From Actinomycetes bacterium (GTDB lineage: Bacteria > Actinomycetota > Actinomycetes > JAHEKZ01), in NCBI GenBank assembly GCA_024644435.1, contig JAHEKZ010000023.1, positions 1 to 32,409 on the forward strand: a stretch of 32,409 nt of DNA. The letters are read 5' to 3'. Both the position numbers and the translations under genes were made by a program. The notes under the pieces were generated by a model, which saw nothing but the letters and a program-made list of their open reading frames with translations, made no database searches and was not told the origin of the DNA. Positions 19,003 through 31,040 of the stretch are shown piece after piece. The stretch's first letter is position 1, and each line of letters opens with the position of its first letter.

Positions 19003-19698
19003 TCAGTCCTTCGGTGCAGCCGGAGCGGTTCCCCCGAGCCGTTCCGGCTGCCACCACTGGCCCGTTCCGTCGCTCGGGTACTCGTCCTGGGCGCGACGTA
19101 CCAAGGCGATGACCTGTGAACGCAGCTCCGCCGCGGCCGCATCGCCGCGCAAGGTGGGCTCGATCGGCTCACCCACATAGACACTCACGGGCACTTTTCG
19201 CTGTTTGAGGCTCGAGTGCTCGTCGTACGTCCACAGCCGCTGACTACCCCAGACGCCGACAGGAATGAGCGGCGCCTTGCTCGCCTTGGCCAGGCGCTCA
19301 GCCCCGGTCTTGAACTCCTTGGGCTCAAAGGAACGGCTGATGGTGGCCTCGGGGAAGAGCCCCACCACTTCTCCGGCCTTCAGCGCCGCGAGCGCATCGC
19401 GGAAGCTTTGCATCCCGGCCTCACGGTCGACCGAGATGTGATGCATGCCGCGCATCAGCGGACCGGCCACGCGGTGAGCGAAGATCGGCTCCTTGGCCAT
19501 GAAGCGCACATAACGACGAGACTCCCTGGCACCCAGCCCGACGAAAATGAAGTCGAGGTGGCTCACGTGGTTGGACGCCATCACGGCCGGACCCGACAAC
19601 GGAACGTTCTCGCCACCGTCGACGCGAAGGCGTAACCCGAGTGCCTTGAAGGCTGTCATGGTGGCGGCCACCACGGGCGGGTAGACGTAGTCAGACAC
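19003..19698 (-). CDS. plsC: 1-acyl-sn-glycerol-3-phosphate acyltransferase (PlsC family)
   Basis: A 231-aa lysophospholipid acyltransferase. Motif I, NHVSHLDF (H-x4-D, His44 and Asp49), is the catalytic site, and LFPEATISRS gives the FPEG-like motif III for phosphate binding. It would add an acyl chain to lysophosphatidic acid to form phosphatidic acid at the membrane; other lyso-lipids are possible, as these organisms have several paralogues. The GTG at 19698 is chosen because TAGGCT (-10) lies seven bases upstream and the family N-terminus starts here; the frame to 19764 is inside the RNase III-like gene. It may therefore be transcribed separately from the sbcDC unit as well as with it. 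Confidence 0.82.
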   Translation of the reverse strand: MSDYVYPPVVAATMTAFKALGLRLRVDGGENVPLSGPAVMASNHVSHLDFIFVGLGARESRRYVRFMAKEPIFAHRVAGPLMRGMHHISVDREAGMQSFRDALAALKAGEVVGLFPEATISRSFEPKEFKTGAERLAKASKAPLIPVGVWGSQRLWTYDEHSSLKQRKVPVSVYVGEPIEPTLRGDAAAAELRSQVIALVRRAQDEYPSDGTGQWWQPERLGGTAPAAPKD

Positions 19699-19711
19699 GG
19701 CGGGCAGCCTA
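19696..19711 (-). promoter_or_regulatory. -10 element made from the RNase III-like stop codon, driving plsC
   Basis: TAGGCT (19706-19711, minus strand) begins with the TAG stop of the upstream gene and is followed by seven bases and GTG 19698. A weak TTCGTC at 19728-19733 could be the -35 with 16 bp spacing. Confidence 0.45.
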
Positions 19712-20476
19712 GCGGGCGTCGACCGGGACGAACTCCTGAGCAAGCTCCAGGGCTGCGTCAGCACCGTGCACCTCCAGCGCCTCCGCGACCTGGTCTTCGA
19801 CGTGGCTGAGCAGCGTCTCGGCGTCGCCGTGCATCGAAGGGTCGCGGCCGCTCATGACCGCTGCCACTGCCGACGCGCGGTGAAGCTCTGCTCGGCGCTG
19901 AGACAGCTCGCCCTCGTCGGCATCCGGGAAGACCCGTATCAGACCATGGGCGGCACCCAGCTCGAGAAGAGCCGAACCCACGCGTCGGGCGGCGCGTCCA
20001 GCGTCCAGGCCGGGGATCCCGGCCTCGAGCGCACGGCCTGTCTCAGCCTCCATCGGGTGTACCACCCGCGAGGAGAACGCGAGCGCCTGCAACCAACCGC
20101 CGGAAAGCCAGCAGGCCGCCACGCAGGTCTCGACGAGGTCTGCGAGACGCTCTGGGGAGGCAGCCCATTCCAGCCACGAACCCAGGCCCTTCTGCACTGC
20201 CACCTCGGCCAGGTGGCGGTCGGTGGAGTCGACGGCGGCACCCGGTTCGCGGCAGTGCGGGCACTGAGGCTCGCACCACTGATGCACGGCCAGCAGAACG
20301 TCGAGCACAGAGTCGCCGAGAAACTCCAGACGCTGGAAGTGCACGCCGCGTCCATCGCGCACCGCCAGCAGCGTCGGCTCGTCAGGTATCTGCCCCAGGA
20401 CATCGATGATCTGCGCACGTTCGCGCTCGGTGATTGACGGGCGCAGCTCAGGGGGCGGTGTGCTCGGGAGCGTCAC
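19709..20476 (-). CDS. RNase III-like protein with two RNase III domains, one degenerate, no dsRBD
   Basis: A 255-aa protein. Residues about 15-140 match an RNase III catalytic domain: the signature RLEFLGDSVLDVLLA holds Glu51 and Asp55, and LADLVETCVAACWLSGG holds Asp113 and Glu116, the four acidic positions needed for cleavage, in the right spacing. The usual FP-x-EGELS-x2-RA-x-L segment is missing here and is replaced by a cysteine cluster (C68-x3-C72-x2-C75). Residues about 160-250 repeat the fold: LLELGAAHGLIRVFPDADEG and ELSQRRAELHRASAVAAV match the middle, and LLSHVEDQVAEALEVHG the end, but the acidic residues are lost. No dsRNA-binding domain follows. I infer an intramolecular pseudo-dimer. 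Start is GTG 20476, overlapping the sbcC stop (GTGA). It is not the normal housekeeping Rnc. Confidence 0.75.
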   Translation of the reverse strand: MTLPSTPPPELRPSITERERAQIIDVLGQIPDEPTLLAVRDGRGVHFQRLEFLGDSVLDVLLAVHQWCEPQCPHCREPGAAVDSTDRHLAEVAVQKGLGSWLEWAASPERLADLVETCVAACWLSGGWLQALAFSSRVVHPMEAETGRALEAGIPGLDAGRAARRVGSALLELGAAHGLIRVFPDADEGELSQRRAELHRASAVAAVMSGRDPSMHGDAETLLSHVEDQVAEALEVHGADAALELAQEFVPVDAR

Positions 20477-27760: not shown

Positions 27761-28777
27761 TTAGCCCTTGGACGGGTCGTTCGTGCAATTCTGCGTCCCC
27801 GCGTCCATCACTTTGTCGTTGGTGGCGTCAATGAACGCGTAGCTGTAGGTACCGTCCGATGACAGCGTCAACCGCAGCACACCCACCCGGTCGTCGAAGC
27901 GCACCCGGCTCTTCGGAGCCTTCGCGCCGATCTCGTAGAGCTCCTTGCCGCCGCTCCCGACCGTGAACTGCGTCATGCCGTCGATCGGGGCGAAGCGTTC
28001 GTAGATGTGGTCGTGCCCGTTGAGCACGATGTCGACGCCGCCTGCATCGGCCAGGTCCCACAGTGGCTGGGCGCGCGCGATGGTCGGTTCGTCACCGTTG
28101 TAGCCACCAGAGGTGTGCAGCGGGTGATGCCAGGCCGCTATGGCGCACTCCGCGTCCGAGCGTTTGAGCTCTTTGGAGAGCCACCTGCCTTGCGGTGAGT
28201 CGGGCCCGCACCCACCGACGAACTCGCAGTTGGAGTCGAGCAGGTAGATGCGCCATCCGGCGACCGGGCTGAACGAGCGCCAGGGCTTCTGGGCGGTTCC
28301 GGCTCGCGTGCCGAAGTAGTCGAAGTACCCCGCAGCGCCATCGGTGTACCACTCGTGGTTCCCCGCGATGGGCTCAGTGATGGACCGGAACCGACCGAAC
28401 CACTTGTCGTACACGGCGTTGAAGGCCGCCAGCGAGCCTTCCTCGTACTGGATGTCACCGAGGGGAACGAACCACTCAGCACCCTGCTTCACGAGCCGGT
28501 TCGTCAGCCGGGAGACCACCTCATGTCGGCAGTACTGCGGGTCGTCGAAGACCGGGCTCGTGGGGTCGCAGGCGATGTCTCCGACCGTGACGACGTCAGT
28601 GGTCTTGACCTCTTCGGAGGGTTCGGGTGAGGCAGTGGCTTGCGTCGGTGCCGGAGAGGTGGAACCTGGGTCAGCGCGCTGGGGGTCGGCACCGCTGGAC
28701 CCGACGGAGCACGCGCCCAGCATCAGGGCGCTCGCAGCACCCAGCGCCAGCGCGCGCGCCACCCCCGTCTGGCTCAT
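27761..28777 (-). CDS. Lipoprotein metallophosphoesterase, purple-acid-phosphatase-like
   Basis: A 338-aa exported calcineurin-like phosphoesterase. A signal peptide ends with a lipobox (LMLGAC, Cys23), so it is probably a membrane-anchored lipoprotein; residues 24-58 are a Ser/Pro/Thr-rich linker. The metal-site motifs are all present: VGDIACD (Asp67), PLGDIQYEEG (Asp108, Tyr111), AGNHEW (Asn140, His141), AWHHPLHT (His217) and LNGHDHIYERF (His255, His257). The tyrosine and motif style recall purple acid phosphatases. It likely releases phosphate from extracellular esters. The ATG at 28777 is the first that gives a correct signal peptide; the frame extending to 29305 has no protein-like sequence. 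Its cysteines (Cys70, Cys83, Cys184, Cys190) could form disulphides. Confidence 0.88.
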   Translation of the reverse strand: MSQTGVARALALGAASALMLGACSVGSSGADPQRADPGSTSPAPTQATASPEPSEEVKTTDVVTVGDIACDPTSPVFDDPQYCRHEVVSRLTNRLVKQGAEWFVPLGDIQYEEGSLAAFNAVYDKWFGRFRSITEPIAGNHEWYTDGAAGYFDYFGTRAGTAQKPWRSFSPVAGWRIYLLDSNCEFVGGCGPDSPQGRWLSKELKRSDAECAIAAWHHPLHTSGGYNGDEPTIARAQPLWDLADAGGVDIVLNGHDHIYERFAPIDGMTQFTVGSGGKELYEIGAKAPKSRVRFDDRVGVLRLTLSSDGTYSYAFIDATNDKVMDAGTQNCTNDPSKG

Positions 28778-29093
28778 CAGTGGTAGACCCCCGGGCTCGG
28801 TTCTCAGCAGCAGTGCTGCGCACTCCAGTGTCACCCATGGCGAACCGTGCCTGCGCACCTGGCCGAAGCACCTCACCCATTCAGACGACATCCCACCCCT
28901 CGCCGAGTGCACACCTGGGTGACACCGCCGCAGTGTTGATCGGCCAAGCGGGGGATGCATCTCAGCAGTCGGGTGATACCGACCCGGCGGCACACCCGTT
29001 CGGTGCAGCAAGCGCACACCCAGGACCTCCGAACCACTAGGTGTGAAGGAGAGGGAAGCGTTGACGATCACATCCGGAGGGGAGGCGAACGAC
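28778..29093. other. Intergenic region, no gene seen
   Basis: 316 bp between the divergent phosphatase and small-protein genes. Reading frames here have no protein-like features and overlap in several directions. It must carry both upstream control regions, but I see no clear promoter. Only short imperfect inverted repeats are present (for example CACC-cgttc-GGTG near 28987). Confidence 0.5.
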
Positions 29094-29246
29094 ATGGTCA
29101 TGACGCTGCTCCACGAGCACATCCCGCTCTCGCTGCTCCACGACCTGTGGAATCCCGACGGCCCGGAGTCGTGGGAAATCCTCGCCGTAGAGCGGGGATG
29201 GCTCGACCCGCAGAGTCTGGATCGCACGAAACTCGCGCCCGTCTGA
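29094..29246 (+). CDS. Small conserved-looking protein, 50 aa
   Basis: A 50-aa frame (MVMTLLHEHIPLSLLHDLWN followed by an acidic, Trp-containing tail) starting at ATG 29094. The start is chosen because a strong GGAGGGGAGG ribosome site lies eight bases upstream; GTG 29043 and TTG 29061 are longer options in the same frame. The HEHIPLSLLHDL core, with a following GPESWEILA, is like small actinobacterial proteins of unknown function that I recall by pattern only. No membrane segment or cysteine. It is just upstream of the tRNA-Lys gene. Confidence 0.6.
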   Translation: MVMTLLHEHIPLSLLHDLWNPDGPESWEILAVERGWLDPQSLDRTKLAPV

Positions 29247-29253
29247 GGTCGAT

Positions 29254-29283
29254 TTCGAGGGGCGCCGTCGGCGCTGCTAGAGT
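29254..29283 (+). promoter_or_regulatory. Possible tRNA-Lys promoter
   Basis: TAGAGT (29278-29283) lies 39 bases ahead of the mature tRNA; a weak TTCGAG (29254-29259) is 18 bp upstream of it. Confidence 0.3.
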
Positions 29284-29322
29284 TCTTTCTGCTCCGCTGG
29301 CACACGTGCTGTGCGGGGCATC

Positions 29323-29395
29323 GCGCCGCTAGCTCAACTGGCAGAGCAGCGGACTCTTAATCCGCGGGTTCGGGGTTCGAGTCCCTGGCGGCGCA
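29323..29395 (+). tRNA. trnK: tRNA-Lys, anticodon CTT
   Basis: A 73-nt cloverleaf. The acceptor stem GCGCCGC (29323-29329) pairs perfectly with GCGGCGC (29388-29394), followed by discriminator A. The D-arm is GCTC-loop-GAGC; the anticodon stem GCGGA/TCCGC carries loop CTCTTAA with anticodon CTT; the T-arm is CGGGG-TTCGAGT-CCCTG. CCA is not encoded. It reads AAG lysine codons. Confidence 0.96.
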
Positions 29396-29414
29396 CCCGT
29401 TCTGTGTGAAATCG

Positions 29415-29496: not shown

Positions 29497-29513
29497 GCCG
29501 GCTAACAGCCAGC
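29497..29513 (-). terminator. Hairpin over the beta-helix gene stop codon
   Basis: On the minus strand GCTGGCT-gtt-AGCCGGC forms a 7-bp stem with one G-U pair that contains the TAG stop. No U-tract follows. It may be a terminator or an RNA-stabilising hairpin. Confidence 0.3.
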
Positions 29514-31037
29514 GCAATCATCTGGGGTATTGGCGTATACCGAGCCAGACGCCGACAAGGTCACGGTCCCCAGATCGTTAAGGACGCCACCACCTGTCAC
29601 CCGGGCGGTGTTCTCAAACACCGTGGCGAGCTCATTGACCAAAACCGTTCCCTTGCTGTTGTAGATCCCACCCCCCTGGCGACCATTGTTGCTTGACACA
29701 TAGGCGGACCCGTTCATGACCATCTCGCCCCGGTTGTACACCCCGCCTCCGAGGTAGTACGAGCGGTTGGCTATCACCGAGGCAGAGTCGTTCATCACAA
29801 CGGGGCCCGACCCATTCGCCGCATTCAAGATCCCACCACCGCGTCGGGAGATGTTCCCAGCCACGGACGAGGAGCCGTTCAAAGTGAGGTCTCCGGAGTT
29901 GTAGATTCCTCCACCTCGACGCCCCGAGTTTTCGGACACCAGCGCTGAACCGCTCATTGTGACTGCTCGGAGACGGACGATCAGAATTCCACCGCCCTTG
30001 GGAGCGGTGTTCGCGGACACCACCGATGATTGGTTGAGGTCCAGTCCGCGGCCATTCGAGTAGATCCCACCGCCGGCAAGAGCGGCGGTGTTATCGACTA
30101 CTGATGCCGCACCGTTCAGCGTTGCTGACCCCTGCAGGTAGAGGCCACCACCAAACGAAGCAGTGCTGTTTCCGGACACTGAAGCCGAATCATCCAGGGT
30201 CATAGTTCCCGAGCCCTGGAAGATGCCACCGCCGCCGCTCGAACTGACGTTGCCGGACACCGAGGCCGAGCCCGCTAACGCCGCCGTCCCCGAGGCAAGG
30301 TAGATGCCACCACCACTCCTGTGGGAGACATTGCTGGACACCGAGGCCGAGCCATCCAACGTGACCAAGCCGCTGTTGACGAATAGGCCACCACCGCCAC
30401 CGTTGCTTGCCACGTTGCCGCTCACCGAGGCCGAGCCATCCAACGTGACCGAGCCTGCGGCCGCGAAGATGCCACCACCAAAGTCTACGGAGGTGTTGTT
30501 GGACACTGAGGATGACGACTCAAGAACGAGTGATCCGCCGTCCACATAGATTCCGCCGCCGCGATCTCCTGATGTGTTGTCAGTCACCGATGACGAGCCG
30601 TTCAGTATGAGCGTCCCAAAGTAGTTACGAATCCCTCCCCCGCGACGTGGGCTGGCCCCGCCCGTGACCGAGACGTCAGTCAGGGTGACTTCAGTCGTCG
30701 CATCGCCGCGCACTCTCAACACCTTCACGACCCCATCGCCATCGAGCGTCGCCTGTGGTGTTTCGGCGGTCGAGATGCCGAGCAGCGTGAGGTTTTGACG
30801 GATTGTGAAGCCACCCACACAGACGCCGGAGAACTGAACGGTGTCACCAGCGCTGGCGAGATCAATCGCCTCCTGGAGATCCGAACTCGGAGCAGTTCCC
30901 GCCGTCACGTTCTCGGCCACACAGGTCGTGGCGGCAGCCTCCGCCGACGGCGGCGAGCCGAACAACGCCACCAGCGTGACACCGAGTGTCGCGACGACCG
31001 CGGTCGAGCGTGCGTTGACTCGCCCAACAGCACTCAT
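29502..31037 (-). CDS. Secreted right-handed beta-helix repeat protein
   Basis: A 511-aa exported protein. Residues 1-35 are a signal peptide (hydrophobic VVATLGVTLVALFG, likely cut after AEA). Residues 40-130 look like the first turns of a parallel beta-helix (LQEAIDLASAGDTVQFSG, the pattern of pectate-lyase-like folds). Residues 133-511 are 14 imperfect repeats of about 25-30 residues, each beginning GGG(I/L/V) and continuing with L-x-x-S-x-x-V-x-x-N. The C-terminus ends NTPDDCAGC. Proteins of this kind are surface or secreted adhesins or carbohydrate-active proteins; no catalytic residues can be named. ATG 31037 is chosen because GGAGG lies six bases upstream; a GTG one codon earlier is also possible. 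Codon use is a little less GC-rich than the rest of the window. Confidence 0.85.
   Translation of the reverse strand: MSAVGRVNARSTAVVATLGVTLVALFGSPPSAEAAATTCVAENVTAGTAPSSDLQEAIDLASAGDTVQFSGVCVGGFTIRQNLTLLGISTAETPQATLDGDGVVKVLRVRGDATTEVTLTDVSVTGGASPRRGGGIRNYFGTLILNGSSSVTDNTSGDRGGGIYVDGGSLVLESSSSVSNNTSVDFGGGIFAAAGSVTLDGSASVSGNVASNGGGGGLFVNSGLVTLDGSASVSSNVSHRSGGGIYLASGTAALAGSASVSGNVSSSGGGGIFQGSGTMTLDDSASVSGNSTASFGGGLYLQGSATLNGAASVVDNTAALAGGGIYSNGRGLDLNQSSVVSANTAPKGGGILIVRLRAVTMSGSALVSENSGRRGGGIYNSGDLTLNGSSSVAGNISRRGGGILNAANGSGPVVMNDSASVIANRSYYLGGGVYNRGEMVMNGSAYVSSNNGRQGGGIYNSKGTVLVNELATVFENTARVTGGGVLNDLGTVTLSASGSVYANTPDDCAGC
29505..30641 (-). repeat. Tandem coding repeats of about 75-90 bp
   Basis: Fourteen diverged in-frame repeats encode the beta-helix coils (unit starts GGG-hydrophobic, then x-GSASVSGN-like). 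They are best seen at the protein level; the DNA identity between units is moderate, with short near-identical blocks such as those encoding LDGSASVS. Confidence 0.75.
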
Positions 31038-31040
31038 CAC

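Follow-up and report, generated by a model that had tools for sequence, protein, structure and literature searches.

A 2021 review of the RNase III family assigns one RNase III domain per chain to all bacterial RNase III proteins; chains with two are, in its scheme, confined to Drosha and Dicer, the inactive plant protein RNC1 being the exception (PMC8708148). A gene in the 32,409-nucleotide stretch of actinomycete DNA analysed here (the window) raises the question of whether a small bacterial protein can hold two such domains and, if so, how its two halves share the work. The preliminary description of this gene, which drew the same line between the bacterial layout and that of Dicer and Drosha as the review does, had read its product as a single chain of two RNase III domains, with catalytic residues in the first alone. 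Profile tests, nine relatives and an alignment with Drosha all bore this reading out. No report of a two-domain bacterial RNase III was found in the open-licence literature that was searched, and an earlier report may exist.

The tandem gene and its relatives

As shown in Table 1, the tandem gene lies on the minus strand in the order sbcD, sbcC, tandem gene, acyltransferase, and the same order was found in its relatives within the genus of the window (g1), as far as their contigs reach. The acyltransferase frame as listed overlaps the tandem gene, and its true start is probably internal. PADLOC returned nothing for the tandem protein. Elsewhere in the window, a 512-aa frame (29502-31040, minus strand) matched a short repeat that occurs in the polymorphic membrane proteins of Chlamydia and is perhaps a secreted repeat protein. 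The second half of a 514-aa frame (27761-29305, minus strand), which adjoins a tRNA-Lys gene at 29323-29397, contains a calcineurin-like phosphoesterase domain.

Table 1. Coordinates of the tandem gene, its domains and residues, and the neighbouring genes in the window
Feature	Position	Strand	Basis or remark
Tandem RNase III-like gene	19709..20476	-	255 aa, GTG start
Domain 1 (residues 15-139), RNase III domain, intact catalytic quartet	20060..20434	-	Pfam PF00636, alignments
E51 (E. coli E41)	20324..20326	-	invariant in 10 relatives
D55 (E. coli D45)	20312..20314	-	invariant in 10 relatives
Short Cys loop (C68, C72, C75) replacing the usual EGxLS segment of domain 1	20252..20275	-	
D113 (E. 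coli D114)	20138..20140	-	invariant in 10 relatives
E116 (E. coli E117)	20129..20131	-	invariant in 10 relatives
Domain 2 (residues 140-250), degenerate RNase III domain	19727..20059	-	HMM and shuffles, hhalign and decoys
R161, at E. coli E38 position	19994..19996	-	invariant in one alignment, 8/10 in another
R164, at E. coli E41 position	19985..19987	-	alignments
S168, at E. coli D45 position	19973..19975	-	alignments
E188, at E. coli E65 position, DEGELS motif	19913..19915	-	invariant in all ten
S224, at E. coli D114 position	19805..19807	-	alignments
E227, at E. coli E117 position, retained	19796..19798	-	alignments
sbcC, 994 aa	20473..23457	-	overlaps tandem gene start by 4 nt
sbcD, 393 aa	23457..24638	-	TIGR00619 above cut-off
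Acyltransferase (PF01553), downstream of tandem gene	19003..19764	-	

A search of 60 related genomes yielded orthologs in three other genomes of g1, and the gene was thus present in 4/4 genomes of that genus, one copy being cut by a contig end. A profile search of 395 genomes of the class added three more distant proteins in g66, a genus of another order, and a search of that order gave further g66 members together with two proteins in a third genus, g139. The two-domain layout was therefore found in three genera of two orders of the Actinomycetes. Repeating the class search with all ten proteins added none, and 396 genomes across the phylum contained, beyond the g1, g66 and g139 members, canonical RNase III only. 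Some g66 genomes were without the tandem protein. The relatives were 27-59% identical to the window protein. The g66 proteins (about 295 aa) are encoded beside an NlpC/P60-like gene and an SDR-like gene and the g139 proteins (about 255 aa) beside a MaoC-like gene and an SSB-like (single-strand-binding protein) gene, these names having been read off the sequences; no neighbour of the tandem gene was common to different genera. The named nearest relatives (L036-L038) all came from metagenome-assembled genomes, and no cultured member was seen. At two loci (L042 and L044, from genomes G396 and G402), a stop codon was counted inside the matched stretch; the frames used contain no stop between the start that was chosen and their end, and the counted stop probably sits at the edge of the match.

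The history of the tandem was followed in a tree of both halves and canonical RNase III. The N-terminal halves formed one clade (support 98/93), and the C-terminal halves fell on one side of a branch with weaker support (87/68) and long branches. In both halves, g1 and g139 grouped together and g66 stood apart. Since the two halves show one tree order, the tandem probably arose once, through a single fusion or duplication that preceded the separation of the genera; how the deeper branches join is uncertain, given the long branches of the C-terminal halves. A canonical RNase III gene is kept elsewhere in the genome of the window, indicating that the tandem copy is an extra one, and every tandem-bearing genome had another RNase III match, save one that is 78% complete. 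An origin from a phage or plasmid was also considered; no relative with two domains turned up in viral contigs, phages or plasmids, and the idea was dropped.

Two RNase III domains, one with an intact quartet

The whole tandem protein matched Pfam Ribonuclease_3 (PF00636) in two stretches with 45.1 bits (E 1.9e-11), above the family cut-off of 27 bits, and residues 48-127 covered the entire profile. Residues 1-140 alone scored 28.3 bits, which is also above the cut-off. Only two Pfam families appeared up to an E of 1, both of them RNase III, and the Pfam search found no dsRBD in the chain, in agreement with the preliminary description. The cleavage site of E. coli RNase III contains four metal-binding residues, E41, D45, D114 and E117 (PMC9291653). 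The quartet proposed earlier for the first half, E51, D55, D113 and E116, aligned on exactly these residues, and this E, D, D, E set was invariant in 10/10 proteins. Domain 1 also keeps F52 in the alignment and has Gln48 at the position of E. coli E38.

The EGxLS segment has been lost from domain 1 and is kept in domain 2. C72, C75, C118 and C122 were invariant in g1, and C72, C75 and C118 were also found in g139; these cysteines of domain 1 may form a metal site replacing the lost segment. The idea that domain 1 has no E65 counterpart at all was dropped because a Glu (E69 in the window protein) aligns there in 7/10 rows.

The second half is the less obvious of the two. On its own it scored 21.3 bits against PF00636 (E 4.8e-4), under the family cut-off, as might be expected if it resembled RNase III by chance or composition only. 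However, a canonical RNase III HMM built from 44 sequences out of the loci examined gave it 19.4 bits, whereas the best of 5000 shuffles reached 12.1 bits and unrelated ORFs of all loci at most 4.2 bits (three higher-scoring entries in that list were RNase III fragments). The preliminary description had held that residues 160-250 repeat the RNase III fold and had named an HMM-HMM search as a way of checking this; when the ten second halves were compared with canonical RNase III in hhalign, the match reached 98.1% with an E of 6.5e-14 over 93 columns, far above 30 column-shuffled decoys (at most 0.4%). In addition, in the relative L011 the second half was the stronger RNase III match. Because the shuffles, the unrelated ORFs and the decoys all scored so much lower, a chance resemblance is extremely improbable, and by these profile comparisons the second half is an RNase III domain. 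TIGR02191 placed its best stretch here as well (residues 167-207 against profile positions 41-81), with 40 bits against an equivalog cut-off of 166.25.

The catalytic positions of domain 2 are broken. The preliminary description was right to place Arg and Ser at the first two acidic positions (R164 and S168), whereas the third is Ser224 and not His; His225 is the residue right after it. The quartet reads R/S/S/E in g1, A/(D, T or N)/D/Q in g66, where the second position varies among those three residues, and E/A/D/E in g139, so that at least one quartet residue has been lost in every genus, with a different set in each. A kept quartet in domain 1 and a variable one in domain 2 are what would be expected if catalysis were required of domain 1 only. 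At the same time, dN/dS was 0.08-0.63 across both halves, pointing to purifying selection, and a value below 1 in the second half suggests that the dead half is still needed. Whether g139 has an Arg at the position of R161 depended on the alignment. Domain 2 of the window protein carries Arg165 where E. coli RNase III has F42, and the F42R change abolishes the activity of the E. coli enzyme (PMC8708148 Table 1); the usual interface must therefore be altered.

Comparison with known RNase III proteins

The tandem protein shares with class I bacterial RNase III (Rnc) the quartet of domain 1 and the match to the RNase III profile. In contrast to Rnc, which has one domain and a dsRBD and forms a homodimer, it has two domains, one of them dead, and no dsRBD. 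Mini-III consists of an RNase III domain without a dsRBD and is like the tandem protein in that respect. However, each Mini-III chain contains a single domain (class I, PMC8708148), and the TIGR family search returned no Mini-III model among the matches of the tandem protein.

Two RNase III domains in one chain are the common feature with Drosha and Dicer (classes III and IV). A profile built from the ten proteins aligned with human Drosha in one collinear stretch running from its first RNase III domain into its second (profile positions 48-222 against 615-851 of the chain; whole-chain E 5.5e-15). Both of these eukaryotic proteins are large and multidomain and have a dsRBD in addition to two working sites, whereas the tandem protein has 255 aa and one site; it carries neither a helicase, a PAZ or other extra domains nor a dsRBD, and its domains are not both catalytic, the quartet of domain 2 being broken. 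Plant RNC1 also has two RNase III domains in one chain; both are inactive, and the protein acts in chloroplast intron splicing (PMC8708148, PMC11241334). An RNC1-like protein would have no intact quartet in either domain, whereas that of domain 1 is invariant here and domain 2 alone has lost such residues freely; an inactive protein of that kind is therefore very unlikely. In trypanosomes, KREN1-3 with KREPB6-8 join a catalytic RNase III protein to a non-catalytic one, and cutting may thereby be limited to a single strand of a duplex (PMC9508840). By its residue pattern the tandem protein would likewise combine an active with an inactive RNase III part, but the trypanosome partners are distinct polypeptides that carry zinc fingers and belong to an editing complex.

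A putative single-site enzyme and its alternatives

In an ordinary RNase III dimer, each domain holds one site, and the two sites act on opposite strands. One functional subunit is reportedly enough for catalysis in artificial heterodimers of E. coli RNase III (Conrad 2002, cited in PMC9508840). In the tandem protein, the halves may pair within one chain: domain 1 would carry one complete two-metal active site, and domain 2 would stand in for the second subunit of the ordinary dimer, completing the RNA-binding valley and doing no cutting. As a pseudo-dimer with one intact site should cut one strand, such an enzyme would nick structured RNA on one strand at one site, without a dsRBD. We regard a self-contained single-chain pseudo-dimer with one active site, cutting one strand of structured RNA, as the probable form of this protein, going by its sequence.

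In E. coli RNase III, the two ends of the RNA-binding valley are occupied by E38 and E65, which face the RNA (PMC9291653), and the E38A protein binds dsRNA strongly and the E65A protein weakly (PMC8708148 Table 1). The repulsive E38 is replaced by Gln48 in domain 1 and by Arg161 in domain 2; these two residues may help to hold RNA and would in this way compensate for the lack of a dsRBD. Both halves are net acidic, however, which does not suggest strong RNA binding. The fuller proposal, a natural bacterial RNA nickase in which the change of acidic RNA-facing positions to Arg lets the dead half hold structured RNA without a dsRBD, appears to us evenly balanced between right and wrong. Two AlphaFold2 runs, each with four orthologs, gave models of low confidence (pTM 0.46 and 0.49; mean pLDDT 51 and 54). 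A Foldseek search with these low-confidence models ranked RNase III entries first, with E values of at least 0.13, which are not significant.

The arrangement of the chains could be different. Bacterial RNase III acts as a homodimer (PMC8708148), and with the quartet and F52 kept in domain 1, this domain might pair with domain 1 of another chain to give a two-site RNase III making double-strand cuts, domain 2 being left to bind RNA or a partner. Against this, the EGxLS segment that is lost from domain 1 is the one that domain 2 keeps, suggesting a division of labour between the halves, and a homodimer of first domains would have no obvious need for a second domain under purifying selection. 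We therefore consider the two-chain arrangement unlikely. The substrate could be different as well: the tandem gene overlaps sbcC by 4 nt in the window as well as at the orthologous loci, which would suit a third gene of an sbcDC operon whose product acts together with SbcCD on DNA or RNA-DNA ends. However, the g66 and g139 relatives adjoin other genes, and since the link to SbcCD is confined to one genus, it was given little weight; a role of this kind seems less likely still.

The single-chain pseudo-dimer thus remains the reading that we prefer. If it is correct, the tandem enzyme would be a handy one-site tool for strand-choice tests and for placing nicks in dsRNA. For the RNase III family, a small bacterial two-domain protein of this type would show how a homodimer can become a single chain with specialised halves.
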